This document shows positions 9,644-53,677 of a stretch of 64,000 bases of DNA, piece by piece. Made by a program: the position numbers and the translations under genes. Origin of the DNA: Isoetes taiwanensis (taxonomy: Eukaryota > Streptophyta > Lycopodiopsida > Isoetales > Isoetaceae); the NCBI GenBank assembly GCA_021234155.1, contig JAJEKV010000072.1:6367676-6431675 (forward strand), given 5' to 3'. The notes beneath the pieces are model-generated. The model was not told the DNA's origin, made no database searches, and saw nothing but the letters and a program-made list of their open reading frames with translations. How positions within the stretch are numbered: position 1 is the first letter of the stretch; the number at the start of each line of letters is the position of its first letter.

Positions 9644-11285
9644 TTATAAGGCACATCTCCACAATTGCTTCATAAACATGAGCAGGCTCAACTGCTTAGC
9701 AACAACTAAAAATGGTGTGTGCACAACTGGAATTATTTCAGATCTAGCTAATTTGTCCCTTAGCTTTCTAAGCCTCTCTTTAACCTTTTCTCGTGCATCC
9801 TTAATATTGGCATCCATCTGTCTTGTTTTCCCAAACAATTGAACATCAGTAAACTTGCATTTCCCATTCTGATCAAAGTACTTTGATCTGAACCTAGCAC
9901 TATGCTGCTCATATCTAATGTCACTCCTCTTTTGCAATTCCCTTTCCAATCTTGCATCTGCCCTTCTCTTCATGTCTTGCTGCCTTTTTCTCCAATTGTA
10001 TTTTCTTCCTATTCTCTACATGATTCTTTCTTGCCTTAGCTGCTTCCTTTTGTTTCTCATTAGCATCAATTCGAGCTGCAATCATTTCATCACTAGTCAC
10101 CATTAACCTGCATGCTAGCACCTCGGGAAGCTTGGATCTCCTAGCAACAATTGGTTGATGGCTGGCTTGCTTTGGGGCTGCTGCTGCTGCTGTAGAGACT
10201 GAAGTGGATGGTTGCATGTTCCCAACAGTGGCAAGTGGTTGGAGAATAGGTGTAATATGGGGTGGCATACATATGATTAGCATTGGTGCAGGAAGGGGGT
10301 GGCAGGCCAGCAGCTAGAATTTCTATTGCTACACCTTCATTTAAGAAGCCCGCAACAATATTAGATGTGGTCAATGCTTCACACAAGGATGTGGACACAA
10401 TAGTAGCCATGTCTTCTTTGCTAGGCTCCCCAAACTGTTGACCCCTCATGTAATGGCTCCTATTTCTTTTGAATCTAGTTTTGAAGGGAGAGAAACATGA
10501 CATGTCTAGAGGCTGTAATCTGTGAGAAGTGTGTGTAAGTAGCCTTAGAATATGTAAGCCTATGGTTTTGGCATGTTGAATGGCAGACAAGCTCACATGG
10601 GATCCATGGCATGGGATCCATGGCCATCACAAATTAGATGTGGATTATCAGAAGATATGCCACCATGGACATTGTTTTGAAAGTGTGCAAGCCAGCCATC
10701 AAACAATTCATTTGTAATCCATGCCTTTTTCTGGAAGGCCATGGCAGCTCTAGGTTCACATCCCAACATTAGATTTCTATCCCTCATCCTTTCACCTTTA
10801 AACACGTACAAATTAGGTAGCACATAACCTGCAGCAGATACACATGTGAGAACAATCAGCCACTCTCTATTCTTTGGTATAGTTTGAGTAGCATTTCTTG
10901 CTCCCCTCCTTGCCAAAATTCTCATACATGATCTGCTGCCAGCTTGTATTCTTGTCTCATCACAGTTCCAAATCTTTGGAGCAGTGAACTTAAATTCTGC
11001 TAGCAGCTTCTCTAAGGCACAGTAAAATGCCTCTAGATTATCTGAGTTCATGGCTTTAACCCGCTGAATTTCTACACATTAGGCAGACCTAAGGCTTAGC
11101 TCTGGATGCCTATTTTTGAAGCCTTTCCACCATCCCTTACCGGGCAAGCCATCTTTAAAACCAGTGTTCCTTTTGATGGCCATCTCACTTACCCTCTCCC
11201 TCAGCAGCTCCAATGTGACACCTCTCCCTTCATCAGACAGGAGCTTGCTATTCATGTCAAAGTGTGTTGAGCAACATGGCAACAT
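9644..11285 (-). pseudogene. pogo/Tigger-like (Tc1-mariner superfamily) transposase remnant
   Basis: Minus-strand remnant of a DDE transposase that would cut and paste its own element. In order: a CENP-B/Tc5-type DNA-binding helix-turn-helix portion (11285-11079, with GWWKGFKNRHPELSLRSA), then the catalytic core (11051-10593) with the first aspartate in IWNCDETRIQ and the second in HLICDGHGSHA, then the third in SHRLQPLD (10596-10141). A charged coiled-coil-like tail follows to about 9644. The segments lie in different frames and are separated by stops, so the gene is broken. Neither the N-terminal psq-type helix nor terminal inverted repeats were found. Family assignment is from the motif set and spacing. 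Confidence 0.85.
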
Positions 11286-14233: not shown

Positions 14234-15771
14234 TCGGTGTATCAACAATATGTCGGTTCATCAACAATATGCATCAGCTCAAAACCAGGAATACCTTAAA
14301 AAAGGAGGAATTACTATATTCTCAACAATGTCCAACAACTTGTTCCAGCCTTGTGTCCTAACGTCATTTAAGGATCCACCATGTAAAAAACACTTTCTTC
14401 ATGGTTTGTTGTCTAAAAATGGTGGTCATAGTGTAAGTGTGTCCTAACATTGTAATTGTTCCCAGACAATAAAAAAAATGGCACTTAAATTGTGCCATGG
14501 ATAGATGAATGTCATTGGCATTGTAATAGAAATTCTAGCCCACATATGCTTCGAAAAATGTACAATTATGGGCGACAACATTGTTGGGGAAGGCCACAAT
14601 AACATGGAATATGATTTAGACCTTGAGAGGCACCATAAAACCACGTTATTCCATGTTCTTATCTATCGCTTTCTTAACAATGTTGTCATGATCTGCAACA
14701 TAGTTCTCATGACAAATAAGAACTACTACTAAAGTCAGAAAAATGATTCCTGAGTGTTTTGATATGTACCAACTCATATTATCACTGTGACTTGATTTTC
14801 CAAAAGCTTTAGAATAAATGGGATGTCCAAGAAAAAAAGAACATAAACAGATTTGCATAAATGTGATGGATATGAACCATGAAGTCACCTCTAGTTCTAT
14901 TCAAATGAAGTAAAAAAGCTACTTAGTTGCCTGACATCAATAGTTATAGCATCTTGCATAGTTGTATCATGTATAGAAGCAGCAGAAAAGAGCAAATAGA
15001 AATTAGTATTGAAAGCTTATCGAGACATGCTTTTAGGAATCAATTTGAGACTAAGTAACCACAATGAAATGAGGACTTACAAACATAAAAGGAAAACCCA
15101 TTACCTGCAGAATGGCTAAGCAACAGTTTCTGGATCACAAATGCACCATTTAAAGCAAAGATCACAGTTTCTGAGAGAGACTCACCTCATTACTAATCTT
15201 GAATTCTAACAAAATAATGTCAATTGGATGTCAACATTGCAACAGATCAAAGGCAGCTATAACGTTGACAATTGTGGCCAAAGACCTTTAAGCTATATAC
15301 CACTTCAATAAAATGCCAGAAGCTGCCAGTATGTCTTTCTAAGTTGAATATATGAATATCTGGTGCTATTGAATACAAATGTAATTTGATATTCTTACCT
15401 CATCGCACATTTGGTTATCATGGTATCTGCTGAAAGAATATGTAGGAAAATATGTAGATCACATGCCTTGGATCTTTTTCTCTTAAAGGAACTCATGAAA
15501 ATTTGAGCTTTGAATACTCTCCACCATTCTAGATTTCATAAAATAACCTGCAAAGCCATCTTCAGTGATGGAACACCACCAGCCAGCCTGTTAAGGAAAA
15601 GAGAATTTGTATAGAAAACAATACAAAAAACATATAATACATGACTTATTGAGGTGCATAAGGAATATAAAGTAAGATTGAGAAGGATCCTAAAGTGAGC
15701 AAAATTAAACACATTGCAAAAAATGAAAACCCAAGAAATAAAACTTTGGCACATACTGCACAATGATGTAA
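14234..15771. other. Non-coding stretch
   Basis: AT-rich sequence between the oxidase pseudogene and the transposon; no gene or repeat was identified. A short repeated phrase (TCAACAATATG, 14239-14272) lies at the break of fragment A. Confidence 0.5.
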
Positions 15772-15775
15772 TTAA

Positions 15776-15821
15776 CAAGGTTGCATTTGAAACGGGAGTG
15801 TTGCACAACTCCCGTTTCAAA
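15776..15821. repeat. Left terminal inverted repeat with adjoining hairpin
   Basis: The TIR occupies 15776-15798. Its inner part also forms a local hairpin: TTTGAAACGGGAGT (15786-15799) is followed after eight bases by its exact reverse complement (15808-15821). The right end has no such second copy, so the left end carries an extra inverted TIR segment. Both ends then continue with AGATTCCC. Confidence 0.85.
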
Positions 15822-17092
15822 GATTCCCTCAAAAAAACATGGCATCCTCTCAGAAATGAACTTTTTGGCCGAGTCAAAGGATTTTACGAGGTTAATTTTT
15901 TTTTCTTGCTTTTTAACCTCTCAGCAAGTGTACATTTCATTTGATGAAATATCATGGCCAAAAACTGCAAAATTTACAGCTGACTATGCAATACATGAAA
16001 TGAAGACAACAAAAACATCTTAGTTTAAATGAATTAATAATAGTACATTAATTAGAAATTTTAAATACATCAGTTTTGAAGGCAAAATTATTTGAACACT
16101 AGAATAGTCTGTCAGCTGTTAGTGGAAAAGGGCCAAATTTACAGTTGATTGTGTAGTGTAGACAAGCAAGACTAAGAAAATAAGAAAATTGATGGGAATC
16201 AATAATATTAATAATGAATAAATATTTCAGTATCAGTTTTAGAAGATGCCAATCTGAAAAATATTTCTCACAAGGAGTCAAAGATCAACTTCGTAGTCCT
16301 CCTCATGGTGTGTGCTTGTAGTTGCAACGTCTTCCTTAACAGGCTTCTCTTGCTGAGGTGATTTAACTTTTTCCTTGGTAGTGTTGTCTTCTGTTTCCAC
16401 TACTAGAGCCACTTCCTTCAGCTCTGCAAAAGTGACCTCATCCTCTGTGGAGCTAGTAAATGGAGGCTGTATTTCGGACGATGTCATTTTGGCAAAATCA
16501 GATGAGGATTTGGCACCTAGCTCTTGATTCTCGTCTGGTAAGCTAGGTAGTGCAGCCAATCTCATCTTAATAAAATTCACGGCCTCCTTGTCTATATCCG
16601 TTTTTTTGCTACGGTTTCGCCTTTTTAAGTGCTTTGCGGGCAATGGTTGATTACGGGCCGAAAGCATCAAGTATTCAAGTCTCCTTGGCGTGAAAACATG
16701 TCAATAAGCATGGTTGATTTCTTTTCAGTCGGCTCCAGTAGGCATTAGAGGGGCTTCCCCATAAGATAGTGATTGACAATTCTACCTGCGCTTGTTGCTT
16801 GGGTCTTGTGATATATGGTTATGATGTATTTCAATACAAGCCATATGTGTTGGAAACTCTAACACATTAGAAAAATCCCAAAAGCATCAATGGACATGTT
16901 GAAGTGCTCCATTGTTCTGAAGTTATTAGAAAAATGCCGTCGAAGCTCAGTTTAAAAAGCTGATGGTGAGGCCACATGAAGATATTCCACTTTGCTTAAC
17001 AATCTAGGGCCTCCAGCATGGTAATTTATATTGGTTTTGTACCTTTGGGAGAGAAGTGTAGTTAGCAATCTAGCAATTGATAAATACGTTTA

Positions 17093-17134
17093 CTATTCCA
17101 GAATAGCAAAGGAAAGCAGAAGTATTCCAGAATA
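17093..17134. repeat. Two palindromic sites in intron 5
   Basis: CTATTCCAGAATAG (17093-17106) and TATTCCAGAATA (17123-17134) lie inside the 101-base intron 17143-17043. They are one-base variants of the element's TATTCCGGAATA core. Confidence 0.8.
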
Positions 17135-17143
17135 AGTTCTCAC

Positions 17144-17586
17144 CAGACCAAATTCTCGCCCCCGCTTGGAGGGGATCCAAAATGATTCTTGAAGCTTCGC
17201 TTCCACCATTCCGCCTTGCATGCTAGAATGGAACACCACCGACCTCCGCTTAGCGCCGTTGTAATTTGTTTTAGACCATCAATAAAAGCATTGAACTCGG
17301 AGTTCCTAAATGGTAGGTCGTCATAACGGATGTCCTTGATCTTAAACCCGTACGGTATATCAGCAATGATCAGGGTAAAATTCTGGGGCTTAATGCTTCC
17401 CACCAACTTAGTGCAGTCACCTTGAACAACAGAAAACAAATTGTCCTGATCGAACAATGTAAACTTTTCAAACTCGGACGGTTCAACCGACAACCGCCTT
17501 CTGTCAGCCAAGGTGCTTTCCTCACGAGCAAGCTTTAGAAGGTGCATGAAACCTTCAGGAAGGTCTTTGTTTTTCTTTTTGTTCTG
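17144..17586 (-). other. Exon 5: catalytic half of the DNA methyltransferase
   Basis: The exon is fully open (147 codons). It begins with a lysine-rich patch, then has GDCTKL and, about twenty residues later, DIPYGF. This matches the pattern of beta-class DNA methyltransferases: a GD turn, a strand ending in D-P-P-Y (here D-I-P-Y), then a helix and the strand GGRWCSILACKAEWW. The second motif residue being I instead of P is tolerated in the family pattern (D/N/S-x-x-Y/F/W). It ends at TCTG|GTGAGA; joining to 17042 restores a tryptophan (NLVW-YKTNIN). Confidence 0.8.
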
Positions 17587-17828
17587 CTTTTGCAAATGAA
17601 GTTAAGTTGTGTACAAATAGTTGAAACAAACGAAGGTCCAAATGGTGAAGTATTATACCCATCCTTCAAAATTAGGAGCGTATTGTACAATGCGCTCGTC
17701 TGAAGTTGCCATAGGGTACAGCTCCTTACACCTTTCCCAGATTTCCACATTTAACTGCTCCATCAAGCATGTTTGGCATGCAATGACGTTCTTTTGGCTA
17801 ACAAACAGAAAATATTAAGTACATTACT

Positions 17829-17840
17829 TATTCCGGAATA
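17829..17840. repeat. Palindromic site in intron 3
   Basis: A perfect TATTCCGGAATA within the 94-base intron 17891-17798. Confidence 0.85.
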
Positions 17841-18197
17841 CAAAACAGATAAGGAATCCGAAAGTATGAAGCACGAGACATGAAGGCTTACTTGTGCAGT
17901 TCCTTTGACATCTCTTCTAAGGTAAACTCCTTGTCCACTACTTTCTGGAGTAACCTTTCTAGGATGGTTGTGTCCGTGAATCCCTGCAGCTCCCTCCGTT
18001 TGCGGATGGTCATTTCTTTTTTTGGCACATCTGTGCCCTTTTTCTTCTCTGTTACTTTACCTTTGCTCTTTAATTCCCCTCTTTCAAAAGCTGTAAATAT
18101 TTCGTTTTGCAGGTCCCATATCTACAGCACAACAACATATTGTAAGTTACACTGGAGAAAATCTTTTAATAATGAGCTACTATAAACATGAAGCAAA

Positions 18198-18347
18198 GGC
18201 CAAAGTGTATTCCGGAATACACTTCGGCCAGACACCAAAGGCCAAAGTGTATTCCGGAATACACTTCGGCCAGACACTGAATGCCAAAGTGTATTCCGGA
18301 ATACACTTTTGGCCTGACATTAAAGTGCGAGGACTATTCCAGAATAC
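18198..18347. repeat. Array of three long palindromes (42-base period) plus one short site in intron 2
   Basis: Sites at 18198-18229, 18240-18271 and 18282-18314 each read GGCCAAAGTGTATTCC (first base T in the third) followed by its near reverse complement, at an exact 42-base period with a conserved AGACA(C) spacer. A fourth, CTATTCCAGAATAC, lies at 18334-18347. All are within the intron 18359-18122. Read through, they would encode a repeated peptide (CIPEYTLAF), but splicing would remove them. Confidence 0.92.
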
Positions 18348-18359
18348 AGAAGCGCTTAC

Positions 18360-19701
18360 TCTGCCATCCCTGAAAGCAAGTTGGAACCAATTATCGTGGC
18401 TGATGAGAGAGTGGCTCTTGCTGGCTTCATCGTACTTTAGACAGCACTCTATTGCGCACGCCTCCTTAAGCTTCAAAGATGGCCCTGGCTTCTTAAGATC
18501 TTCTCCATATTTTTCTTTGAATATCAAGTACTCTCTGTGCATGAATCTGATTGTATCGACAAAACTCATTTTGAGTTTGTACTCGTTATCTGCATTGTGT
18601 GTGTTGGCCACTATTTTTGCCTCTTCGTCAGTCGGGCCACAATACACCGCACAGAGGACGGAGAAGTATCTTGGATTTTGCTTTTCTTTAAAGAGTTGCC
18701 TGCGAGCTTTGAAGCTATGGTTTCCACCCAGCACATAATGTGTGTAGTGATCTGCACACTCTCTGTCATAATTTGCCAGGTCCATGCACTGGCTTCTGTC
18801 GACAAGCACAACTATTGGAGCAGCAAGTGCATTTGGGTTACTCCTTATCCTGTCTTTCAAGTTTCTGACGTGATCTGCATAAATTTTTCTCACCTGGAGT
18901 GGTCTCTCTCCTGTGACAGGAAAATAAATCACTCCTTGAACATATTTATTTTTATTTATTTCTTCCATCCGTTCTGCCGTCTTGTCTATCTTTTTTTCTT
19001 TAATTGCAACCCCTGGGGCCTTGCCCTTCCCCTTTGTTTTTTTTCCTATTTCCTGGGGTGCATCTTCAATAGCAAGTACCGCTGTCTTTCTTTTCTTGGG
19101 CTCCTTGGCAGCCACAGTTTGTCTTTGCTTCTTTGGTGGTGGTGGTGGGGTTGCTTCAAGTTCGGACTCAGCAGAATTTGCATCGTCCTCCTTACTCCCA
19201 GTTTGGCTGCTGCTTTCACCCCCACCTTCTTCTTCTGCTTCAGAAGCACTGTAGTCCAGTGCTTCACTTCTGCTGCTTGATACCGTCTTAAGGATTGTTG
19301 ACAATGCCAGCTTATTTATATAGTGGGCAATGTAACTGTAAAGCCGTGTAGGCTGCACGTTGGCTAGCTTAAAGTAGGCTACATCAAGAACAATGTAGCC
19401 TTGTGACGTCTTAAATGAAAGCCTTGGCTGTTGCTTGGCCTGCTCAGCAACTGACTCCACGTGCTGTATGGATCCCATGCACACACACTCAGACTCGTCG
19501 TGCCGTTTCTGCCCTGGGCTGTGACAGACATACAGGAAAGTGACATTGCTGTACTTTCCTGCGAAACCTCTCGTGACGTACCACTGGGTCTAAAAGTTCT
19601 CGTATATTTGTGGCTCAGTGGTCTCTTGTTCCGTTTCAGGCGCGGGTTTCGTGCTCTTGAGCTTGATGGTCCTTCTGGGTTTTGGAACACCATGTTCCTG
19701 C
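18360..19701 (-). other. Exon 2: ParB-like domain and charged linker
   Basis: This exon carries a conserved-looking N-terminal part (GKYSNVTFLYVCHSPGQ, then DVAYFKLANVQPTRLYSYI), a low-complexity acidic/lysine-rich linker, and the ParB-like fold candidate. The GGNHS motif occupies the position of the ParB GERR/GENR-type phosphate-binding motif. After it come KIVANTHNADNEYKLKMSF and a helical tail ending FRDGR at the donor AGA|GTAAGC. One nonsense codon (TAG, 19592-19590) lies in the N-terminal part; the remaining ~410 codons are open. The ParB call is by motif pattern, not by a profile search. Confidence 0.75.
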
Positions 19702-19756
19702 CTGCAACATCACAGTAACTAACTGTTTTAGTTAAAGCAAAGTGAACTAGAAAATG

Positions 19757-19881
19757 TATTCCGGAATAACATTGTCTAAATTCTACTGCTAAAGCGCTTA
19801 AAAATGCACTAAATTTAATGTTTTTGTAGCAAAACTTTTTTGAACTGAAGGCCAAAGTGTATTCCGGAATACACTTTGGCC
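19757..19881. repeat. Two palindromic sites in intron 1, one a perfect 32-mer
   Basis: TATTCCGGAATA at 19757-19768, and a perfect 32-base palindrome at 19850-19881 whose left half is GGCCAAAGTGTATTCC. Both are inside the intron 19936-19702. Confidence 0.93.
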
Positions 19882-20073
19882 TCTACCTAAACAACAATTC
19901 TAAAATATGCCCGTACATTGTACTTTTACCGCTCACCTCTCCATGCTGCGTGCTAAAGTATTGTAGAAGGTTTCGAAGGCGCTAGATTGGAGCGGCTGGA
20001 GCTTCGAAACTGGAATACACGACTAAGTGCCAAAAAATCTCTTTTTAAAGGTCTGCTTCAGACACATGTCCAT

Positions 20074-20223
20074 TTCTATGTATACCGGAATATGTTTGAT
20101 TCAAAATGTGTGCTAACATGTATTCCAGAATAGCAGACTTCTCCTTGGCTTGACACTTCGTATTCTCGAATAGCAAACTTGCACAAGTTGCTTCCGTATC
20201 TCTCCTAGTTGAAGTTATTGAAG
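20074..20223. promoter_or_regulatory. Divergent intergenic region with palindromic sites
   Basis: The 150 bases between the two opposing start codons (20073 on minus, 20224 on plus) must hold both promoters. They contain three variants of the palindromic core: TATACCGGAATA (20081-20092), TATTCCAGAATA (20121-20132) and TATTCTCGAATA (20161-20172), spaced about 40 bases apart, close to the 42-base period in intron 2. The arrangement would allow a site-binding protein to repress or mark both genes. No clear TATA box was singled out. Confidence 0.6.
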
Positions 20224-20589
20224 ATGGTTAATCGCATCCAGAACAGACTTCCACCACCTTTTGTTGCACCGAGTTCCTCTACTTCAGAGGAAATGCCCGA
20301 TGAGCATGTGTTTTTGCCTGGTGCCCACGCTTCCTCATCTCCTGCCTCTACAGCATCCTTGTTACTCCTTGATGATTCTCCAAGTCCATCACATAGTAGA
20401 TTGCCACCACCTTTCCAACCCTCCCCGAGCCCTTTCAAGAGTAGGTTGCCTCCTCCCTTCGTTCCATCTCCACATGTACACAGTAGGCTATCACCTCCTT
20501 TTGTACCATCACCAGAAGCTGCATATGCTGCAGCACAACAGATGTTTCTAAAAAGACTGCCCCCAGTATTTGTAGCTTCTCCTCTAACA
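20224..20589 (+). CDS. Proline-rich 5' segment of the transposase-like gene
   Basis: From the ATG at 20224 the frame encodes repeated units of the type (N/S/K)RLPPPFVPSP, five or six times (NRLPPPFVAP, SRLPPPFQPSP, SRLPPPFVPSP, SRLSPPFVPSP, KRLPPVFVASP). It ends at TGA 20590-20592, but the same frame stays protein-like beyond it (THPQECEILHHFSHHDLC, GSPPPPINVVTHGFAEF), with further stops at 20750 and 20872. It is probably the N-terminal region of the DUF7869-type protein, now split by nonsense mutations; an intron or frameshift must connect it to the main frame. The motif may be a docking or disordered segment. Confidence 0.55.
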
Positions 20590-20891
20590 TGAACAAGTAC
20601 AAGGTCTGCAACACACCCACAAGAATGTGAAATTCTCCATCACTTTTCTCACCATGACTTGTGCACAAATGAAGACGATGTTGTAGGGTCCCCACCTCCT
20701 CCCATAAATGTTGTGACACATGGGTTTGCAGAATTTCAAACAGCAATAAGATAAATGTTTGACAAGACACCTAGTCAACACAATCAAGCAACAACATCCT
20801 ACGGCCCATCACCTACATTTAACACTGTCCCTCCGAATTTTTCGGGTACTGTGTCACGTGGTTTATTTTCCTAGAGGAGGTCATTCCTAGA

Positions 20892-23396
20892 GTGGAACTC
20901 TCATCAGAGGATAAAGACCCTGACAAGGAACAACGAGATTACATGTTCTCTAACCAATCTTCAAAGAAATTCAAAGTAGATTTCAGCTTGAGAGCATGTT
21001 CTTCCGTAAGAAGAAGAAATCTGATGGACGAGCAGAAAATAAGAAAAATTCTCAGAACTACATGCTGTTCATTGGGATGCATTAGCAAATTCAACGTGGC
21101 TAAACTTCGTGCAATTAGAGACCATTACAGTTCTATGACAATTTCAGAACAGAATGCCTACTTGGCTTATCATGTAAGACCAGACAGGCACAACTTCTTG
21201 CACTATATCAATCGGCAAGAAGTGTGTCAAAAATGCTTCATGGTCGTGCACCGCCTGGGTTCCTCCAGAATGTCTCGAATACATAAACGATTAGACAAAA
21301 GCCCTAGCATTGATGACCACTATGGGCCTGGAAAAATTGTAACAATGCATGCCCTAGCTGTTGTGGCATGGATGGAGAAATACTTCAGAGAAACGTGTGA
21401 AAAATTGCCAAACAGCAATATGTATCACTTGACAGATAACATCACAAAAAAAGATGTTTTCAAAGAATACAAAGAGACATGCAGTCAGTCTCAGCATATC
21501 TCTTATTCACATTTCACTAGATTGTGGAAAACTGAATTTGGTCTTGTAAAAATTCCTCGAAGACACAGAATGTCTGTGTGCTCAACGTGTGCAGAACTAA
21601 AGAGTCAGAAAGAAACTGCAAGGACAGAGCTCGAAAAAAGTAAGTTCAAGTTCTTCATTCTCGTACTTGCATCATGTAATTGTTTTGACCTGCTTCCTTC
21701 AACAGACATTGTGCAACAAAAGCTTGCTAAACACCGTGACCAACAAGCAGCTGAGAGAAGGAAGCTTGCTAAGCATAGGAAAAAAGCTCTTGAGCGTCCA
21801 TTTGAGTACATGTCCGTTGTGATTGATGGAATGGATCAGAAAAAGACGACTCTACCTCATTTCTTGAACATTCCAAAAGATGTGCCAGAAGAATGCTTTG
21901 TCAAGGTCCACCTCGTAGGGGCCATGGACTTCAATGGGAGTCTAAAGTGCAAAGTCTTTTTAACATATCCTAATTTGCATGGTGATCCAAATCTCACAAT
22001 TACAATTCTTAACAAGGTTCTTTGTGAGCAACAACAGTTACCACCAGTGCTCTACCTGCAACTTGACAACACTACCAGGGAGAACAAGAATCAAACACTC
22101 TTTGCTTACTGTGCCATGCTAGTGGAGCTGGAGATTTTCAGAAAAATAAAGCTTGGATTCTTACTAGTAGGGCATACACACGATCAAATAGATCAGATGT
22201 TCAGCAGGTTTTCAGTGCGTCTCAGAAGAAAAAAAGCTTTTTGTCTTCCCACTTTGGTTCGTATCATTGAAGACTCTTACACTCCCATGCCAGTAGTTGA
22301 GCTTCTAAAGGAGACTGCCGACTTCAGGGAATTTGTTTTCTCTCAATGTGCAAACAGAGAACAAGCTGTGAACAAGCTAAATGACATTACGTTTCAACAT
22401 CACATCAAATTCTACTTGAAGAATGGAGAGAGCCTTTTGCAGGGAAAGAAGTACACTACAACTAAAGGGTGGAGTCCGGTAGAGGGATTACGCTTCCTTA
22501 AATCTGTTCCAGACACTAGTTCCATGGAACGTGCTGAGCAGCTTCCTCTAAAAAATCCAAAAGTGTCAAAGCAGCAAAAAAGTACCCCAGTCACTTCCTT
22601 GAAATCCATTGAAAATAGAATTTCCACGGGTTTTAAGTACTTCACTGAAGAAGATCAAATGTGGTGGAGAGGCTTCTTTCTAGAACAAAAGACTATGATT
22701 CAGAACCTAGCTCTGAGGCAGTTGCAAGAACCTTTTAAGTGGTCTAATGCTTTCCACCAACCGCAGGACCAGGCAGGTCAAAGCATTGCTGCAGTAGCAG
22801 TTGCAGTACATGAAGATGAGGACCGGGTCATGTACCTCGGACCAAGATGCAGGAATGAACCTACAGGTAATGTCACAGAAATTACCAAAGGTATGTTGAT
22901 TGCTCTTCCGACTGAGGAGGATGACAAGAGGAGACATTTTTGGATAGCCAAAGTACTTGACACAATCAAAGAGGAAGGCCTGGTAACAAAACTCAAGATT
23001 TATTGGCTTGCTACACGTTCAGAAAATGCTTTTGAAGGTAGGTATGAGCTAGAAATGAGAAGTCAAGGAAAGGGCAAAAAGGCCAAGAAAGTTGGATGCA
23101 GGGATGAGCTAGACTTACGACAAGTGAGTATTTTGTGCTATGATTTCAAATTGAAATCAGACAATCGTTTACGCCAGAAAACAATCAACTTGCTTAAGAA
23201 GGCTTGTAACTATGAAGAAGAAGATGAAGAAGAGGTTGGGAATGCTTCACCGTCTGTTGATAGTGATGAGGAAGATAACTCAAGCACTTCCTCAAGTGAC
23301 AGTGAAAGAAGTGAAACTGACGAAGATGGCATAAACGAGCATGAAGATGTCTTAGATCCCTCTCTTATCACTCCTCACACTTTTGCACATAACTGA
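20892..23396 (+). CDS. DUF7869-type protein, probable DDE/RNase H-like transposase
   Basis: An open frame of about 834 codons starting after GTG 20892 (the frame opens slightly earlier; the true start probably lies in the upstream segment). N-terminal cysteines (CCSLGC ~58-63, VCQKC 111-115) and a CSTC pair (230-233) suggest zinc binding. The core has VVIDGMDQKK (D312), LQLDNTTRENKN (D392) and LLVGHTHDQIDQMFSR (428-438), the family's hallmark and consistent with an RNase H-like acidic triad. A basic coiled-coil-like stretch (QQKLAKHRDQQAAERRKLA) precedes the core; the C-terminus is very acidic and serine-rich. A 66-base in-frame intron (21640-21705) is probably present, which would shorten it by 22 residues. 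Such proteins are widespread and uncharacterised in animals and plants. It is divergent from the methyltransferase gene and within the same TIRs. Confidence 0.85.
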   Translation: MELSSEDKDPDKEQRDYMFSNQSSKKFKVDFSLRACSSVRRRNLMDEQKIRKILRTTCCSLGCISKFNVAKLRAIRDHYSSMTISEQNAYLAYHVRPDRHNFLHYINRQEVCQKCFMVVHRLGSSRMSRIHKRLDKSPSIDDHYGPGKIVTMHALAVVAWMEKYFRETCEKLPNSNMYHLTDNITKKDVFKEYKETCSQSQHISYSHFTRLWKTEFGLVKIPRRHRMSVCSTCAELKSQKETARTELEKSKFKFFILVLASCNCFDLLPSTDIVQQKLAKHRDQQAAERRKLAKHRKKALERPFEYMSVVIDGMDQKKTTLPHFLNIPKDVPEECFVKVHLVGAMDFNGSLKCKVFLTYPNLHGDPNLTITILNKVLCEQQQLPPVLYLQLDNTTRENKNQTLFAYCAMLVELEIFRKIKLGFLLVGHTHDQIDQMFSRFSVRLRRKKAFCLPTLVRIIEDSYTPMPVVELLKETADFREFVFSQCANREQAVNKLNDITFQHHIKFYLKNGESLLQGKKYTTTKGWSPVEGLRFLKSVPDTSSMERAEQLPLKNPKVSKQQKSTPVTSLKSIENRISTGFKYFTEEDQMWWRGFFLEQKTMIQNLALRQLQEPFKWSNAFHQPQDQAGQSIAAVAVAVHEDEDRVMYLGPRCRNEPTGNVTEITKGMLIALPTEEDDKRRHFWIAKVLDTIKEEGLVTKLKIYWLATRSENAFEGRYELEMRSQGKGKKAKKVGCRDELDLRQVSILCYDFKLKSDNRLRQKTINLLKKACNYEEEDEEEVGNASPSVDSDEEDNSSTSSSDSERSETDEDGINEHEDVLDPSLITPHTFAHN
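21640..21705 (+). other. Probable 66-base intron, in frame and stop-free
   Basis: The donor AAAAA|GTAAGT at 21640 and acceptor TTCAACAG|AC at 21705 bound 66 bases. Read through, they encode a hydrophobic, cysteine-containing stretch (KFKFFILVLASCNCFDLLPS) that interrupts an otherwise charged region. Removal joins ELEK to NIVQQKLAKH. Size and T-rich 3' end fit the short introns of the neighbouring gene. Confidence 0.75.
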
Positions 23397-23707
23397 GTCT
23401 TAGGAAAAAAGAAGTAAATTTTGAATGTGAATATGAAGATTTTATCTTCAATTTTGAAAATACTACTATTTCAGCTGTAAACTTCACTTCAATTTTTGGT
23501 TAAAATTTGTGTTCTCTTAAATTAGAGGTTTGCTCCAAAAAGACAATTTAGGTAAATTATAATTGCTAAAAAAAGTGTCACTTTGACATAGTCAATTCTC
23601 TGTTTGGAGAAAAAACTTGGTGATTTTAGGGGGGTCAAAATACATTTTTATGCCCTTTTTTTTTAACACCTCATTTTAGCCATTTTTTGCAGAAAAATAG
23701 GGAATCT

Positions 23708-23749
23708 TCAAGGAATATTCCTTTTGCTCCCGTTTCAAATGCAATCTTG
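23708..23749. repeat. Right terminal inverted repeat and subterminal palindrome
   Basis: The segment 23727-23749 is the reverse complement of the left TIR with one mismatch. Just inside it lies the perfect palindrome AAGGAATATTCCTT (23710-23723), whose TATTCC half-site resembles the internal TATTCCGGAATA sites. Confidence 0.85.
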
Positions 23750-23753
23750 TTAA

Positions 23754-26260
23754 TTGAACAAATTGATGCCTATTATGCCTATTAATAACGTAGACAATAT
23801 TATCATAGTTCGCACCATGGAAAATGGCATTTCGACTGCAGTAGAGAATCTAGCAAGCAAGAGTTTTTTGATACTCATCTTCTTATTGAAGCCCATAAAT
23901 CCTGGACTGCATTGAATGGGGAAAAAAATGACATGTTGCAGATAGCAGATTAAAAACATGCATGAGTAGCAGAATTGAATGTCAAAAGAGGACCTGAAAA
24001 GCAGAAATACTCATAAATTTTAAAGATAAAATCTGTGGAACAGAACTAGAAATGTGACACTTTCTAGATATAAGCTCAGATCCAAAACTGAGTTTGATCC
24101 TAAAATAGGCGAAACATCACCAAGAAGCAGAATGTAAGCTCCGTAAAAAATACCAAAACATACTGGTCAAATAAGGCCCTAATCACAAATAAGTCATGAC
24201 TTGACAACAAATTACCTTTCTAGAGAAGATTCCAAGTTGTCACACCACATGTCTATGGATAAGCCTCTGCCTTGAATGCCTAAAGAAAATGACAATGATA
24301 CTATGAATTCATGGTGTCACAAACTGGCATCATAGATTAGCACTATTAGAATGATTTACCATGCGACCAAGAACCCAACCTTCAGTTTGAAGAATTGTTT
24401 GGGTGCTTGCCCTATGTAACCATCCACAAATCAAGAATGATAATGCTGATTTGAAGCTAAAATTGCTGATGGATGGCTTCTGTATACAAATAACCTCTCT
24501 GTCTTTTCATTTGCCTGGTTGCAGTGAAAATTGCTAAGCCCTGCACATAATGCACACATAAACCTGTGAAGAAACTCGGATAAACACCTGCAAAAGACTG
24601 AAACTATAAATCACCTACAAATCTAGAAAACTCCCAACTTTATTCTTTCTTTCTTGTCTGTGTCGATTACGAACAAAGCTCATGCATTTTGCTGATTTGC
24701 ATGTTGCAGGCCCTTGCATGCCATTTGAAGGTAACATTCAACATTCTCAACATTATCAACATTCAACATTCTATTCCTTCCAAGTGATTTAGCGCTAACG
24801 CAACTATTGCAGCTGTATACTCTGATCTTTCACAGCCAGCCAACATCTAAAGATGATTCAATCTCGATTTTATGGTCAATACCTTGTCATAGCATTTTAC
24901 AAATGATAGTCCAAGTGATTTACCCCTTTTTCTCTTATTCTTCAGCCTATAATCTTAGTCCTCTAGGCGACTTGAGCATAGGTTTAAGGAAAACTGGCAT
25001 CAACATGAATGTTAGTAGAATGGCCATCCTAGATTTGGCCATGGCCGTTCCAAAACTCCACTGCAAAATCTAAACGTCACATTTAGAGGAGGGAATCGAT
25101 CCTGATGAGTAGCTGAACTCAAATGGAATAATAATTAAAGGAAAATAATGTCCCCAAAATTACCCGTGCCAGAATTACAAATTTTCTGATCCCAAAATTT
25201 TGCATTTTTGCTGGATTTTAATGTCTTCAAGCAGCCGAAAAAAAGAGGACACCCACCCCTAAAAACATTAAGTAGATAAACAATAATAGGATCATTCATG
25301 CAACTTATTAAGAAGGGGTTAAACCCCCTTGCAAGTCAGGGCTCAAATTTGACGGCTTTCACGCCTGTTTTTGGCATTTTTGCCTGTCAAAACAAGCAAA
25401 AATAAAATTTGTATTGCAAATGAAAGGTAGCCAATGACCAAATGCCTGTCATGCAGAAGGTCCACCAAAATACATATTTGTCATTTGAAAAGCTAGAAAT
25501 TTAAATTCTCCTGTCATTTTTTTTTATTTTCTTATCTTTTTATAAATAAAATGATATAATATATAGGCCCATATACAAAAATGTATGATCCATCCAAACA
25601 ACCTTTAATAAATTAGACACCATCCAACCATTGAAAAAGGGGAATACTAGCTTGCATCAGCCAGGGAATTGCCAAGGAATCGGCCAGGGGCCATTCTTGG
25701 GCTTATACTTGGGCTTATGCTTGGCAAACAACACTGCTATTCTTGTGCTTACACTTGGGCTCTTTGATTGTTCTGCATCAAGACTTTTGAAACCACCACT
25801 TCTACAAATCTATCTCATCTATTCATTCATGGAGCAAGATAAAGACAACGTAAGTAAGTTCAAATTAGATCATTTGCTCTACATTATTGTGATTTCTTGC
25901 TTTTTCGTGCTCCTTGCATTTTCGTAGTTTTCTATTTTTTATTATTGCGGTGGCTTCTTTAAGCTAAAAAAAGAAGGAAAGCCAATCAATGTAGATCTGT
26001 GCTTTCTTTTTGCAAATTCTCTAATAGCATAGTTGCAAGCTCAGACTCTCAAACGCAGCAGCAGCCCGACATAGTTCTTGAGGAGACCATAGAAATTATA
26101 GAAGGTTCTTGTAACGTACAGAAGAACATACATATTGTTGATGTACATTTAAAACGGTTATATTATTACGAGTTTATAATAGACTTTATAATTGTTTTTT
26201 TTTTTTTTTACATAAAAAATAGTTTCTGTCATTTGGGATTTTTGGCTTGCATTTGAAAGG
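23754..26260. other. Non-coding stretch
   Basis: No gene was recognised. Bases ~25270-25310 repeat the phrase AATAGGATCATTCATGCAAC also found near 13330, linking this site to the oxidase-fragment flank. Open frames at 24807, 25631 and 25999 have no family resemblance. Confidence 0.5.
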
Positions 26261-27772: not shown

Positions 27773-30625
27773 TTAAGATACTCTAGGATCATCAGAGAGA
27801 AATAAGTTAGAATCTACAACATTTAAATTTGAAGCAAACAAATCATAATGACCCCTATACAAACCATAGTCCTCCCATTTCCTGTCAAAATTAGCTCCAA
27901 ATTTCTTTTTATGTGCTGTAGCAATGGTCTCAAAATCAAACTGAAAGTGCAATTTAATCCAGAATATGGACACATTTTTTTTACCATATAACATCCGATT
28001 CCTTGCTTTCCAAATGTTCCAAAGGGCAATATTAATAATTGAATTGACAAATTTATCATCATTATTCATAAGGGACATAAGATCCCCATTAATTAGAATC
28101 CCAAATTTGTCAGAGAACCAAGACCAGAAACCATTCAGGGTGCTACAAAAGAAAATATGGCACATGTCCTCAGGCCTGTTACAAGCTAATGGGCAATTAG
28201 TAGAAATATTGGGGTTTCTTCTAGACATGGAGACCAGATTATTCAAACTACCATTAGCAATGAGCCAGATGAAGTATGAGATTTTTGGAGGACAATAAGA
28301 ATGCCAGACATTATGAAATATTCTCTTGAGTTGATCATAGCTAATGGACCATTTCACCATAGCTTTACATCCATCAATATTGGAGGTCATAGCATTGTAA
28401 ACATTTTTCACTTTATAATCTCCTTTTTCATTTATCCTCCAGTCACTTTTTCCGGAGTTGACAGATAAGTTTGAGAGAAAGGGTTTAATGATAGCATAAA
28501 TTTTCTTATCAGATGAAGTGCCCCTGATAATACCTTTCAGTCTAGTCCAAGACATGATTCTTCCATTTACAAACATATCTCTGATATAAACTACACCAGC
28601 CTCATGCCATTTCTTATGAATCCTTGGGTGCTTGATAGCAAGTACAGGAGAATTAGGCTCAGCCATAATGGGATTCCAAAAGATTGGCACATCAGCATGA
28701 AGCTCATCTCTTTTAATAAAATGGAAATTAGGAGAGATAGCATTCCAAGCTTTGATGAGATTTTGCATAAGAGGGGAGATGCTGGGGCCTGGTTTCAGTT
28801 GACTGAATGCAGAATGGGGAAGCAGATGCTGAACTGAGGGGTGACCACAGGGGTGACTTTGAGAAATCCAATATCTGATAAAGATATAAGCAGGAGATTG
28901 ATTCCCATGAATTGCTTTCCAAATAAGCTTGCCAGCAAGAGATTGAGCTTGAATAAAAAGATTCTTGCAACCTAAACCTCCAGATACTTTAGACTTGCAT
29001 ATGGAATTCCAATTAACCAAGTGACTTCCCTTCCAGATGAAATTTCTAATTATCTTCTCGAGCTCCAAATAAACATACTTTGGAGCTACAAGAACTGTGG
29101 AAAAGTAGACATGAGAACTGGCAAGAACAGCATTGGCAATGATAGTTCTACCTGCAAGAGAGAGATAATTCCCATAGTTGTTCAACTTCTTTTTGATTCT
29201 CAAAATAATAGGGTCCCAAAGACCTTTGATGCTGTGGTTCATAGCTATAGGTAATCCCAATAATTTAGTTGCCTGATTAATAGGAAGGACGTTAATACCA
29301 GCTAGAACTGGAATACTGAGATCACCAATGATCATACTCTTATTCAAGTTCAAATGGATACCAGAGGCAGCAGAAAATTGTCCCACAATCTTAAGAAAGA
29401 GATTGATATTTTGAAGATCAGCATCAAGGAAGGAGAAAGTATCATCAGCATATTGAAGAATGGATATACTATCATCAGAATTTGGAAGATTTAAACCTTT
29501 CAACTGAGCAGTATTCTGATAATGCAGAATGACCCTGGTTAAGAGTTCAGCAACCACAAGGAAAAGGTTAGGGGCCAGGGGACATCCTTGTCTAACTCCA
29601 CATGAAAGAGGAAAGAAGCCAGAAAGAACACCATTAATGAGAACAGCAGAATTGGACCTAGAGTTTAAGCCATGAATTAGATTCATGAGTTTGGGATGGA
29701 ACCCAAGTTTAGACATGGCAAAATCTAAGAAATCCCACCTTACTGAATCAAAAGCCCTTTTAAAATCCAGCTTGAGAAGAATGCAGTTTTGATTTGAGAT
29801 CTTGTTCCAATGCAAACCTTCCATAGCAGCCACATAATTATCTAAGATATACCTATTTGGAAGAAAAGCTGATTGATTATGGCTAATGTTCCTTTGAAGG
29901 AAGCTTTTGATTCTCAGGGCAATGATCTTAGCACAAATCTTGTATGTGGTATTTGTGAGAGAGATGGGCCTCCAGTCCTGAAACTTAGAAGGATGATCTA
30001 CCTTAGGAATCAGAGAGATAAATCCACTAGAGATAGAAGGATGTAGATGATTATCATTCCAGAAGGCATGGACAAGGGAAGTAACATCAGTTTTGAGTAT
30101 ATCCCAGAACTTGATGTAGAATTCTGCTGGTAGGCCATCTGGTCCAGGAGATTTGCCTTTGCTGAAGGAATTGAGAATTTCATAAATCTCATTTTGAGAT
30201 GGAATAGCAGTAATAGCTTCATCCATTATTTCACTAGGATTTGGAAGAATGGAATCCACAGTGGAGATAAACTCATTGGCTTCAGTAGCCATGTTGGGGG
30301 GAATTGGCTTGTCACTAAAGATATTCATATAACTGCTCTTGAAGAAATTTGCAATCTCAGAATGTGAACTATAAATATTACCATGATCATCAACAGTCTC
30401 AGCAATGGAGTTTCTAAGAACCCTACTTTTTGCAACTCTGAAGAAGAATTTTGAAGAGCCAGAGTCCATATCATTAGTATACTTAATTTTACATCTAATA
30501 GCTGAACCCTTAGCTTCCATTTCCTCAATATTCTTAATTCTTCTCTCTAAGATATCCTCCCCTACATGAAGATTATAGTTAGAGGGATCATTCTGTAGAA
30601 GAGACCTTATATTCTTCATATACAC
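27773..30625 (-). CDS. LINE A ORF2: reverse transcriptase and C-terminal domain
   Basis: An open frame of 950 codons on minus, copying LINE RNA into DNA at a nicked target. Visible motifs: SPGPDGLPAEFY (159-170), LIPKVDHPSKFQDWRPISL (~205-223), LKLDFKRAFDSVRW (D287), CGVRQGCPLAPNLF (~342-355) and the catalytic QYADDTFSF (YADD 392-395). The L1-type C-terminal zinc-like motif, CPLACNRPEDMCHIFFC, lies in the last quarter. Upstream, the same frame continues into the endonuclease, separated only by TAG 30676-30674. It is a retroelement gene, not a host gene; the reading frame is too broken for autonomous activity. Confidence 0.93.
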   Translation of the reverse strand: MYMKNIRSLLQNDPSNYNLHVGEDILERRIKNIEEMEAKGSAIRCKIKYTNDMDSGSSKFFFRVAKSRVLRNSIAETVDDHGNIYSSHSEIANFFKSSYMNIFSDKPIPPNMATEANEFISTVDSILPNPSEIMDEAITAIPSQNEIYEILNSFSKGKSPGPDGLPAEFYIKFWDILKTDVTSLVHAFWNDNHLHPSISSGFISLIPKVDHPSKFQDWRPISLTNTTYKICAKIIALRIKSFLQRNISHNQSAFLPNRYILDNYVAAMEGLHWNKISNQNCILLKLDFKRAFDSVRWDFLDFAMSKLGFHPKLMNLIHGLNSRSNSAVLINGVLSGFFPLSCGVRQGCPLAPNLFLVVAELLTRVILHYQNTAQLKGLNLPNSDDSISILQYADDTFSFLDADLQNINLFLKIVGQFSAASGIHLNLNKSMIIGDLSIPVLAGINVLPINQATKLLGLPIAMNHSIKGLWDPIILRIKKKLNNYGNYLSLAGRTIIANAVLASSHVYFSTVLVAPKYVYLELEKIIRNFIWKGSHLVNWNSICKSKVSGGLGCKNLFIQAQSLAGKLIWKAIHGNQSPAYIFIRYWISQSHPCGHPSVQHLLPHSAFSQLKPGPSISPLMQNLIKAWNAISPNFHFIKRDELHADVPIFWNPIMAEPNSPVLAIKHPRIHKKWHEAGVVYIRDMFVNGRIMSWTRLKGIIRGTSSDKKIYAIIKPFLSNLSVNSGKSDWRINEKGDYKVKNVYNAMTSNIDGCKAMVKWSISYDQLKRIFHNVWHSYCPPKISYFIWLIANGSLNNLVSMSRRNPNISTNCPLACNRPEDMCHIFFCSTLNGFWSWFSDKFGILINGDLMSLMNNDDKFVNSIINIALWNIWKARNRMLYGKKNVSIFWIKLHFQFDFETIATAHKKKFGANFDRKWEDYGLYRGHYDLFASNLNVVDSNLFLSDDPRVS

Positions 30626-30673
30626 TAGGAGCTGATTTTTTTCTCTACTTCTCTCCTCTTTGATGATTTTAGA

Positions 30674-31842
30674 CTAATTTTTAATCCACCCTTTGATTTG
30701 TTTAATCTTGGAGTAGAAACATTTCATAGAAGGCATTTGACCAGCAACCACATTTGAATTACTGGAGATAGTCTCATAAAAGGATCTGAATTGATAGCAG
30801 AAATTCTCATTCTCCAGCAGGGAAGAATTGAATTTGTAAGGTGTGCTCCCTTCTCTTTTAATGCTGATGACATGAGAGGTATGAAGGAACTGAGGCTGAT
30901 GATCAGAAATGGAAGTTCCTTCATCACTTGTAACATAGCTATTGTCCCAGAATGCTGCAGATGGATTGGAGACATAAAATCTGTCCAGAGTACAGAAAAC
31001 TCTTGCTTTATCTTTTTGTTTGTTCGACCAAGTATAGGTAGCAGTAGAGGAGGGGATATAGATCAGATTATTATCAGCAATAAGAGTATCCCAATTTTCC
31101 CTTTCAGTTCTGGACATATTGATTTTATTACCCAGTTTAAGATCTCAAGATGGAGTATTATTAAAATCACCAGCAATGATCCAGTTTTCAAGAGATTGAG
31201 AATCCAACCAGGAGTTCAGTTCAGCCCAAATTGGTTCTCTATCTTTGGGTGAAGTAGGAGCATAGACATTGATAATACCAAATCTGGAATTGGAGACCGA
31301 GCAGATCATGGCTTGCCAGGCTCTTGAGGGATTGTTATAAAAGGAAGAGTGATTGATATCTTTTTTCCAGATAATGGCCATTCCACCACTTGCTCCAGAA
31401 GAGCTGATCCAAATAGAGGTAGAATTAGGATCAATCCACTCCCCTAAGTTAGTACATTCAAAGGAGGGAAGCTTAAGTTCCTGAAGGATAATGATGTCTG
31501 CATTATATTGCCTGATTTGAGCAATGGCTCTTCTCCTTTTTAGAGGCCCTTTAATTCCTCTGAGATTCCAAGAAAGAATCTTCCTATCAATGAGAGAAGA
31601 GGGAGACAGAAGGAAAGAAGGATCTATAGCCTGATCTTTCTGGATTTTCTTTTACTTCTAGTGTTTTGAGCTAGAGTTTTATTAAAACCAGATAAAACCC
31701 GAGAGTCCCCCCTGTGACACTTATGTTCCTGAAGGCACAAGATATCTGGATCCAACTTGCGAACAACCAACGCCACTCTCGTTCTCTTCACGGATGACGA
31801 GCGCACCCCACAAACATTCCAGCTCACAATCTTCTTGTCCAT
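30674..31842 (-). pseudogene. LINE A ORF2: endonuclease domain
   Basis: Exonuclease-endonuclease-phosphatase fold that would nick target DNA. MDKKIVSWNVCGVR starts the domain at 31842. DPDILCLQEHKC holds the conserved glutamate. GIINVYAPTSPKDR and WIIAGDFNNTPS (31200-31150) hold the D-x-N pair. SDHQPQFLH ends the fold (the SDH motif). Breaks: one frameshift between 31624 and 31381 and a TGA at 31147-31145 just after DFNNTPS, in place of an arginine CGA codon. Confidence 0.88.
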
Positions 31843-51866: not shown

Positions 51867-53677
51867 TTAGCTAGTAAAAATGGAGGTTTCCCCAACCACA
51901 AAGAAGGGCCTCATCATGTCATTATCTTCATGCTCCAAGATGTGGCAATGCCAAACATAACCTGGACCAACAGTTGGGTCAAAAGGGTATTGGGAGCCAT
52001 TCTGGGTAGTAAAACTGATGAAAATTCTGGTAACATTTCCAGGCATTGCCCTCACTGTATCTTTCCAGCCAATCTCATCTACTCCGGGCGCAACCGGCGG
52101 CCCTGTGAAGCAGCTGCTTGGCTCGCCATAAGGAGCTTGGATTGAACAGGAGTTATTCTGGTAGCTTGTCACATTGAACGGCTGAAAATTGAGCACCTGG
52201 AATTGCACCAAATGAATATGCATAGGATGAGCGTCTGCTGTCGGATTGATCATGCTCCATATTTCTGTAGTATTTTGGGTGGGAAATGTGTCAGCAGGAT
52301 CATGGAAACCTTTATTGTCAATTGAAAGTCCTATTGATTGTCCCTGAGCTGTGGTGTTTTCATTTAATGTGAAATAACGTGTTAGAATGGGCTGGCCTGA
52401 GACATTTCCACATGATGGAATGGATTTGAGATCAATATCTCTTCTAGATATATTAGATGCAACAACATGGAATTTCATCACCATTTCTGTTCCTCCAGAT
52501 GGAACATCACCGCCAGGAAATGGAGCAGGGGCAGAATTCATTAACAATATGTCTGTGCCAGGAGGAACCAAAGAAAAATCTACCAAAACATCAACTCTGT
52601 AGGCAGGAGCAAGCTCGAGGGAGGAAGCATTTACAGGAGAAGAAAGGTACCCACCATCTGAACCAATTTTGGTGAAAAAAAGATCTGAAGAGTTGAAGAA
52701 AAGGGTGTAGAAGCGAGAATTGGAAGCATCGAGAATTCTAAAACGATAAGTTGTATTCTGAACGTTAAGATAAGGCCAGGCCATGCCATTGACGAGAATT
52801 GTATCGCCAAAAAACTCAGGGCACCAGTTGGGATGGACGTCAGGAACGAGGCCAACGTTGGGGTAGTTAAAGGAACCATTGGGGTAGAACTGGCGATCAG
52901 AGATGATTAAAGGAATTTGAAACTGGGCAGAGGGGAGGCCAAGTTGGGTTTCAAGGTGGGGTGACGTTAGGATATAAGCGCCTGCAAGGCCAGCATGAAC
53001 GTTTAGTCTGGTGATGCCAACAGCATGGTCATGGTACCACAACATGGTTGGACATTGAGAGTTGGGATAGTAATATAGTGGAGTGGACCAGGCCGGGCCG
53101 CGGTCGCCGAATTGCGTGAACCATGCATCAGGATTGCCATCTGATGTGCTTGGAACCTCTCCTCCATGCAGGTGCGTCACAGTAGGAATTCCACCATTTG
53201 GGGGATCTGCCCAATCAAGTGTTCTGTCCACTATGAACATGTGTTCCTCATCACTGATATTATTCTCCCAGCTAACCCATACTGGTTCAAACCTTTTAGC
53301 CACCAGCGTTGGCCCTGGAAATGTCGCAGTCTCCCAACTTGGACCATATGCATATAGTGGCGTTTCTGGCAGATCCCTGTGTAGCTTCTGCATCATCAAC
53401 ACACACAACATATATTAACTTAACATAAGTGTTACGTTTCTTCACAGATTTACCAAAGCAAAACTACACTTTTGGTTTTTCTTGCCTGTGTGATCTTATA
53501 CATGCCCATCCTAAAGGTTTCGTTGTATGAGAGAGTGATTGTCTGCATCACAGGCAGTGGATCCACGAATTTCTCGAGAAATGGAGAGGGTGTCATGTTT
53601 TGGCAGACAGATTGAGCATTTGCCAGCGTAACTGCTAGAATCAGAAAGTAATTTGCAGTCCATATGAAGAGTGCCAT
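51867..53677 (-). CDS. Secreted multicopper oxidase, LPR1/CotA-bilirubin-oxidase type
   Basis: Two exons on minus: 53677-53486 (64 codons) and 53387-51867 (506 codons plus TAA), 570 residues. The N-terminus MALFIWTANYFLILAVTLAN is a signal peptide, so it acts outside the cell or in the wall. All four copper motifs are present: THLHGG (H136, H138), WYHDHA (H183, H185), HPMHIHL (~H451, 454, 456) and [12 protein letters not shown] (H544, C545, H546, H550, M555). KLHRDLPETPLYAYG and the length match the plant LPR1/LPR2 group, ferroxidases in phosphate-dependent root responses that resemble bacterial CotA; the ferroxidase role here is inferred from family. NxS/T sites are frequent. ATG 53677 has A at -3 and G at +4. 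Two decayed partial duplicates lie at 13547 and 11886. Confidence 0.93.
53388..53485 (-). other. GC-AG intron of the multicopper oxidase gene
   Basis: 98 bases. The donor is CACAG|GCAAGA and the acceptor GATGATGCAG|AAG. Joining gives KITQ-KLHRDLP in phase 0, exactly the expected protein. The nearby GT donor (CAT|GTATAAG) would break the frame. Confidence 0.85.

Follow-up and report, generated by a model that had tools for sequence, protein, structure and literature searches.

Why would a transposon of a vascular plant carry, opposite its transposase gene, a second gene that probably encodes a ParB-like domain fused to a DNA methyltransferase? The question is raised by an element of about 8 kb in a 64,000-nucleotide stretch of the Isoetes taiwanensis genome (assembly GCA_021234155.1, contig JAJEKV010000072.1, positions 6,367,676 to 6,431,675 of the forward strand), called here the window. 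An earlier reading of the bare sequence, the original prediction, had described one element with these two divergent genes between terminal inverted repeats (TIRs), and had suggested that the second gene serves as a module for site recognition and DNA methylation. The answer that we favour, by somewhat more than an even chance, is that of a Sola-like cut-and-paste transposon whose accessory protein, a ParB-like/N6-or-N4 methyltransferase, would load onto palindromes of the element itself and mark it in cis.

An element whose two genes occur together

The element is real. The search for further copies that had been proposed, conducted over the host genome (1,658,258,908 bases in 1110 contigs), recovered many with the same ends and both genes, which excludes chance. 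Matching 4-bp target duplications of variable sequence flank 15 of the 15 two-ended copies (the window copy counted; two of the others, L019 and L020, probably stem from one event). They read ACAT, GAAT, AGTT, AATC, AATG (L019 and L020), AAGG, GAAA, TATT, ATAA, CAAT and TTTT in 12 copies, AATG and GTTT in two further copies, from a diverged subfamily, and AATT in the window. Since the TIRs of the copies start with AACAAGG and the duplication measures 4 bp, the element extends from 15774 to 23751. The inverted repeats had been correctly predicted (in the window, 29 bp match with 97% complementarity, flank counted in), whereas the TTAA flank described with them was an impression that arose because the duplication AATT abuts the terminal AA of the TIR. 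Elements of the piggyBac and Kolobok types have a TTAA target, and such a target is ruled out here by the variable duplications. A hairpin lies immediately inside the left end (Table 1); the folding test found no comparable fold at the right end. L019 and L020, about 27 kb apart on C1034, both have AATG as their duplication and are inverted internally over the same stretch of about 4.4 kb; for that reason they look like a single insertion that was later duplicated.

The linkage of the two genes was followed from both directions. Among 20 loci picked by the 5' 501 bp of the element alone, 12 have both ends, and all 12 keep remnants of both genes, with whole exons missing in some two-ended copies (L011, L021, L027). 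The candidates scored by gene were the best 150 of 2292 matches to the methyltransferase exon (121 of these 150 without a stop, by hand count), the best 150 of 3153 to the ParB exon and the best 150 of 9019 to DUF7869. When the best 150 methyltransferase and the best 150 DUF7869 matches are compared, at least 27 head-to-head pairs lie 3.5–7 kb apart and 33 at no more than 14 kb, counts that include the pair in the window; 2 pairs show other arrangements. As for the ends, of the 40 5' ends that were scored, 24 are followed at most 30 kb downstream by a scored 3' end (three share one), 16 at a distance of 5–9 kb by hand count, and the other 16 have no partner among the 40 full 3' ends listed. 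Two-ended copies of the subfamily are 86–97% identical in pairwise comparison (L019 and L020 left out). Neither the two genes in separate elements nor TIRs devoid of the genes were seen in the copies examined; L031, a locus picked by its DUF7869 match, has no ParB or methyltransferase exons and also lacks the left end.

The transposase gene

The plus-strand gene is probably a DUF7869 transposase of the Sola type. Its protein matches Pfam PF25273 (DUF7869) with an E-value of 4.8e-51, in agreement with the original prediction, and the three D motifs of its core open reading frame (ORF), for which a catalytic role may be proposed, are retained in five of six aligned copies, the sixth (L012) being frame-shifted at LDN. 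A probable short in-frame intron was recognized by eye at 21640-21705, and the N-terminal part contains stops in the window copy, one of them a TGA. The protein found no relative in the PDB or in a scan of viral contigs, only matches at an E-value of 6 in phages, and none in any of 14 control genomes. According to the excerpt of PMC10741241 consulted, the Sola superfamily combines 4-bp target site duplications, as described above for this element, with a DDD transposase. High-scoring DUF7869 matches also occur outside the list of window-like copies (for instance, C1034:30718629 and C1033:11622140), which suggests further DUF7869 families in this genome.

The ParB-methyltransferase gene

The minus-strand gene probably encodes a ParB-like domain followed by an N6/N4 DNA methyltransferase, for which DNA methylation is the predicted activity. 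In the spliced model it comprises six exons whose borders follow GT-AG and whose phases agree, and the two coding stretches on which the prediction of a spliced gene had been built coincide with exons 2 and 5. Of the 14 other loci searched, 10 likewise show the first exon, ATGGA(G/C)AG|GT, ahead of exon 2, the diverged L030 and L032 among them. In L012, exon 1 is present and exons 2–6 are open through to the stop, giving a protein of about 950 residues that was pieced together manually from the open exon frames, exon 1 having been located by a separate search.

The methyltransferase half is the more readily recognized. The L012 protein matches the Pfam family N6_N4_Mtase (PF01555; E 1.1e-16, 61.9 bits for a cut-off of 26.7), CcrM (E 1.2e-8) and the phage methyltransferases of phrog_67 (E 1.9e-25). 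Motif IV (D-[IL]-P-Y-G, DIPYG in L012) precedes motifs X and I (QKP...DAFSGSG), an order that we take to be the beta arrangement. Profile searches, in which a eukaryotic protein database was not included, assigned the gene to no host family, and scans of viral contigs yielded no relatives. With a query running from ParB to methyltransferase, tblastn against phages returned 306 records; in the 20 of them that were listed, the match covers the methyltransferase half alone, with identity below 26%. A would-be bacterial relative from a pattern scan, the single match L033, was discarded: it is an acidic repeat protein that was judged to match by chance.

The N-terminal domain appears to be ParB-like, at a remote distance and by way of the ICE-type ParB family. 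A profile of nine ICE-type sequences aligns with it over 76 columns from the GGN box (probability 54%) at an E-value of 1.3e-4, which is somewhat flattered because the family was chosen as the best match; none of 60 column-shuffled controls scored as well (best 24.8 vs 36.0). The ICE-type family is in turn related to canonical ParB (E 1.6e-11), and GGNHSFKA of the element aligns with the GGNTR box of the former and the GERRWRA box of the latter. In 7.3 Gb of plasmids, tblastn with the ParB-like part at E ≤10 retrieved three records, all annotated as ParB family (E 4–7), two of them the same gene in two plasmids. Over 299 bacterial genomes the ParB profile gave three short matches (E 0.008–0.09), and against phages the ParB part alone gave one (E 7). 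Pfam returned only DUF6551, in two of four members and below the cut-off (best E 0.0058), and NCBIfam an ICE ParB model (E 0.035). Two unannotated human faecal phage scaffolds (L064, L065) also carry ICE-type ParB genes, 44–45% identical to a plasmid ParB.

In the window copy, the methyltransferase gene has four in-frame stops (TAG 19592, TAA 16954, TAG 16861, TAA 16747), after which the frame of exon 6 changes twice, with additional stops at about 16690–16600. As all four stops are TAA or TAG, reassigned stop codons were considered; they are ruled out by the frame changes, by the TGA in the N-terminal part of the DUF7869 gene and by L012, which is open at these places. The anatomy of two genes originally described holds, and what the original prediction overlooked is the decay of the methyltransferase gene, the stops in the N-terminal part of DUF7869 and the palindromes described below.

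Selection on the two genes

The ParB and motif-IV exons are under purifying selection. Within the subfamily, the ratio of nonsynonymous to synonymous divergence (dN/dS) was calculated for L012 against L017, L018 and L022, with decayed and frame-shifted pieces included and stop codons dropped. It is 0.10–0.11 for the ParB exon, 0.17–0.24 for exon 5, which holds motif IV, and 0.12–0.30 for the N-terminal region. Between subfamilies (L012 against L029, L030 and L032) synonymous sites are saturated; dN is 0.12–0.17 in ParB, exon 5 and exon 6, and 0.11–0.12 in the DUF7869 gene. These figures indicate that both genes have long been maintained and decay in individual copies.

Fourfold-degenerate sites of L029, L030 and L032 differ by 0.43–0.75 in the methyltransferase exons vs 0.23–0.27 in the DUF7869 gene of the same copies, a gap that may reflect either module exchange or different mutation rates. 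The notion that the methyltransferase evolves faster through specificity swaps, to which this roughly twofold difference lends itself, was abandoned, given that the recent pair L012–L018 shows a similar ratio (28/297 vs 11/255) and that CpG content differs.

Palindromes in the non-coding parts of the element

The element contains a recurrent palindrome with the core GTGTATTCCGGAATACAC, present at 4–18 sites per locus in 15 loci and often repeated at 42 bp. Its consensus, GGCCAAAGTGTATTCCGGAATACACTTTGGCC, is common to both subfamilies (107 sites in nine loci and 32 sites in three loci), apart from one or two unsettled letters in the outer arms, and has been kept although the introns otherwise hardly align between them. 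At up to two mismatches to the 14-bp core, the 15 loci hold 159 sites, of which 76 fall within methyltransferase introns and 83 in the stretch that separates the two coding regions, counted with intron 1; this split is approximate by a few sites because a stray match set the gene borders of L016 too wide. At the same threshold, there are none in about 74 kb of exon, a zero that these borders do not affect, and none in about 43 kb elsewhere. Within the window, 10 such sites lie inside the element and 0 outside.

The spacing is regular: of 94 neighbour distances below 120 bp, 47 are exactly 42 bp and 66 fall at 40–43 bp, which would correspond to about four helical turns. The most conserved part is the centre, TATTCC..GGAATA. 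Genome-wide, the exact 18-mer occurs 2585 times, vs 0 for its reversed control and a chance expectation of about 0.03, and 40 of 50 listed exact sites have another listed site within 5 kb. The palindromes look like possible cis sites for the ParB-like protein, and they add a candidate for the site-recognition half of the proposed module.

What the module may do

A modification module that serves the element is the likeliest reading, because the copies examined carry the two genes jointly and selection has acted on the exons for ParB and motif IV. In such a module, the ParB-like part would load the protein onto the element's own palindromes, the fused methyltransferase would mark the element's DNA in cis, and this mark might counter or bypass host silencing, or tune the access of promoter or transposase. 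A stricter version, modelled on ParB and parS, is put forward tentatively: the intronic palindromes would load a nucleotide-gated clamp-methyltransferase that spreads and marks only its own DNA with N6-methyladenine or N4-methylcytosine. If true, such self-marking would constitute a private epigenetic mark within a plant genome that silences through 5-methylcytosine.

Several observations weigh against the reading of a working, ParB-guided methyltransferase. The remoteness of the ParB-like domain is one: hhalign against canonical ParB is not significant (E 0.15–0.23), neither Pfam nor the PDB gives a ParB match for this part, it has no significant similarity to the bacterial ParB-methyltransferase fusions, and no helix-turn-helix was detected by profile in the linker. 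Motif IV is non-canonical with respect to DPPY. Selection is less evident in exon 3 (dN/dS 0.19–0.48), exon 6 (0.51–0.76 for L017, L018 and L022) and the DUF7869 gene (0.44–0.76 within the subfamily), and the stretch N-terminal to ParB diverges rapidly from one subfamily to the other (dN 0.39–0.60); the weaker figures for exon 6, for the DUF7869 gene and for exon 5 of the window copy (0.58) are explained by the partial decay of the copies and the inclusion of frame-shifted pieces. When three mismatches are allowed, three palindromes appear in the window outside the element, vs 12 inside it. Finally, the window copy is dead, and in none of the retrieved copies were both genes shown to be intact together.

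The rival that survives best gives the palindromes to another protein. End methylation regulates transposition in some bacterial transposons; here, too, the methyltransferase might regulate transposition or protect excised DNA, the palindromes being sites of the transposase or of a repressor and not of the ParB-like part. We consider this unlikely. The divergent genes do share a palindrome-bearing region between them, a usual place for autoregulation, and the left end has its own hairpin; however, transposase sites would be expected at the ends, and no palindromes lie near the TIRs in the 15 loci.

A role of the palindromes as hairpins of RNA or DNA (in splicing control or as sources of small RNAs), or their being small self-spreading palindromic repeats, in either case unlinked to the ParB-like domain, is improbable. 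The one unit tested folds strongly (z -5.7), many palindromes lie in transcribed introns, and 10 of the 50 listed exact sites have no listed neighbour within 5 kb, so that some may sit apart from full elements. Yet none is found at up to two mismatches in exons, in flanks or in the rest of the window, the centre is the most conserved part, and the 40–43 bp spacing prevails. That the gene is a functionless passenger caught by the transposon, as the decay of the window copy and others might suggest, is very hard to reconcile with the purifying selection seen in the exons for ParB and motif IV, with co-occurrence across two subfamilies and with the same pairing reported independently in Ectocarpus (PMC12477816, in the part consulted).

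Features of the element and of the rest of the window

Table 1. Positions of the parts of the Isoetes element, numbered from the first letter of the window
Feature	Position	Strand	Basis or remark
4-bp target site duplication AATT (left)	15770..15773		sequence; matching duplications in 15/15 two-ended copies
Left TIR AACAAGGTTGCATTTGAAACGGGAG	15774..15798	+	inverted-repeat match and copies
Hairpin immediately inside left end, ~14-bp arms, TIR motif repeated inverted	15786..15821		z -5.4, 0/200 shuffles equal
Exon 6: methyltransferase end (motifs X, I) and acidic C-terminal tail	16278..17042	-	broken here by stops at 16954, 16861, 16747 and two frame changes near 16690-16630; open in L012
Two palindromes, intron 5 (one with 3 mismatches to 14-bp core)	17093..17136		palindrome scan
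Exon 5: methyltransferase, motif IV D-I-P-Y-G	17144..17586	-	N6_N4_Mtase match in L012 protein
Exon 4 of ParB-methyltransferase gene	17659..17797	-	spliced model
Palindrome, intron 3	17828..17841		palindrome scan
Exon 3 (linker)	17892..18121	-	spliced model
Palindrome array, intron 2, ~42-bp spacing	18194..18347		palindrome scan and spacing
Exon 2: N-terminal region and ParB-like domain (GGNHSFKA box)	18360..19701	-	in-frame TAG at 19592 here
Palindromes, intron 1	19752..19882		palindrome scan
Exon 1: ATGGAGAG then GT donor	19937..19944	-	8 nt; recurs in other loci
Weaker intergenic palindromes (2–3 mismatches to core)	20080..20173		palindrome scan
DUF7869 transposase-like gene	20224..23396	+	Pfam match; N-terminal part stop-interrupted
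Core ORF of DUF7869 gene	20823-23396	+	ORF; D motifs VIDGMD, LDN, HTHDQID, candidate catalytic
Right TIR	23727..23751	-	inverted-repeat match and copies
4-bp target site duplication AATT (right)	23752..23755		sequence

Elsewhere in the window lie a DDE_1 transposase fragment (10593-11078), reverse transcriptase domains that look LINE-like by eye (27773-31651, 33334-34884 and 62688-63959) and an open frame of 515 residues with multicopper oxidase domains (51867-53414), likely a host gene.

Comparison with known systems

The original prediction knew of no described plant transposon with this pairing. Outside land plants, however, the pairing has been described: in the part of PMC12477816 consulted, Sola1-1_Ec32 of Ectocarpus (Sola-1) is reported to carry, on the opposite strand, a predicted protein of 1104 residues with a ParB-like part and an N4-methylcytosine/N6-methyladenine methyltransferase. 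It is proposed in the same excerpt that proteins of this kind bind the transposon encoding them and modify it; similar transposon proteins from green and red algae are cited there (Iyer 2011; Petroll 2025). Because these cases are known, the claim of novelty holds at most for land plants, for which the entries listed in searches of open-access literature showed no report of the pairing and no mention of the palindromes, an absence that is not proof. The two elements, likened by description only, agree in the ParB-like/N4-N6 methyltransferase gene opposite the transposase, with the Sola label probable for Isoetes, and differ in host and size, Sola1-1_Ec32 being a brown algal element of 21.5 kb, compared with about 8 kb and about 950 residues here; palindromes are not mentioned in the excerpt describing it (PMC12477816).

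Fusions of ParB with N6_N4 methyltransferases are also known in phages (PMC12704722, excerpt), and phage and bacterial fusions resemble the Isoetes protein in the order of ParB domain and N6/N4-type methyltransferase. The bacterial ones (L054–L057) have 444–453 residues and a DPPY motif, and differ in their ParB parts, as mentioned above; among themselves, their methyltransferase halves are very similar and their ParB halves differ by eye, as if ParB had been swapped. The closest ParB relatives by profile, the ICE/SPI-7-type family (L063–L071), are bacterial plasmid and phage proteins with no methyltransferase in the parts read. Other transposon-encoded DNA methyltransferases include the Dam-like methylases of DIRS elements and the DNA methyltransferases of Symbiodinium LINE/DIRS elements (PMC5890265), as well as those of virus-borne Mariner elements (PMC3627910); these belong to other element classes, and the excerpts of both papers mention no ParB part. 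The N4 methyltransferases of bdelloid rotifers and Marchantia, by contrast, are bacterial-type enzymes encoded by host genes, which act on eukaryotic DNA, at transposons or genome-wide (PMC8885841, in part).

Set beside these systems, the Isoetes element belongs, as a representative from land plants, to a class noticed only recently; the palindrome arrays are its new feature. Nanopore reads underlie the Isoetes genome assembly (PMC8566536, excerpt), so existing data, or data that are easily produced again, may suffice to look for a bacterial-type self-mark made by a selfish element. Known from algal transposons, ParB-methyltransferases are hereby extended to a vascular plant, where the element has many copies, evidence of selection on the gene and a candidate cis target.

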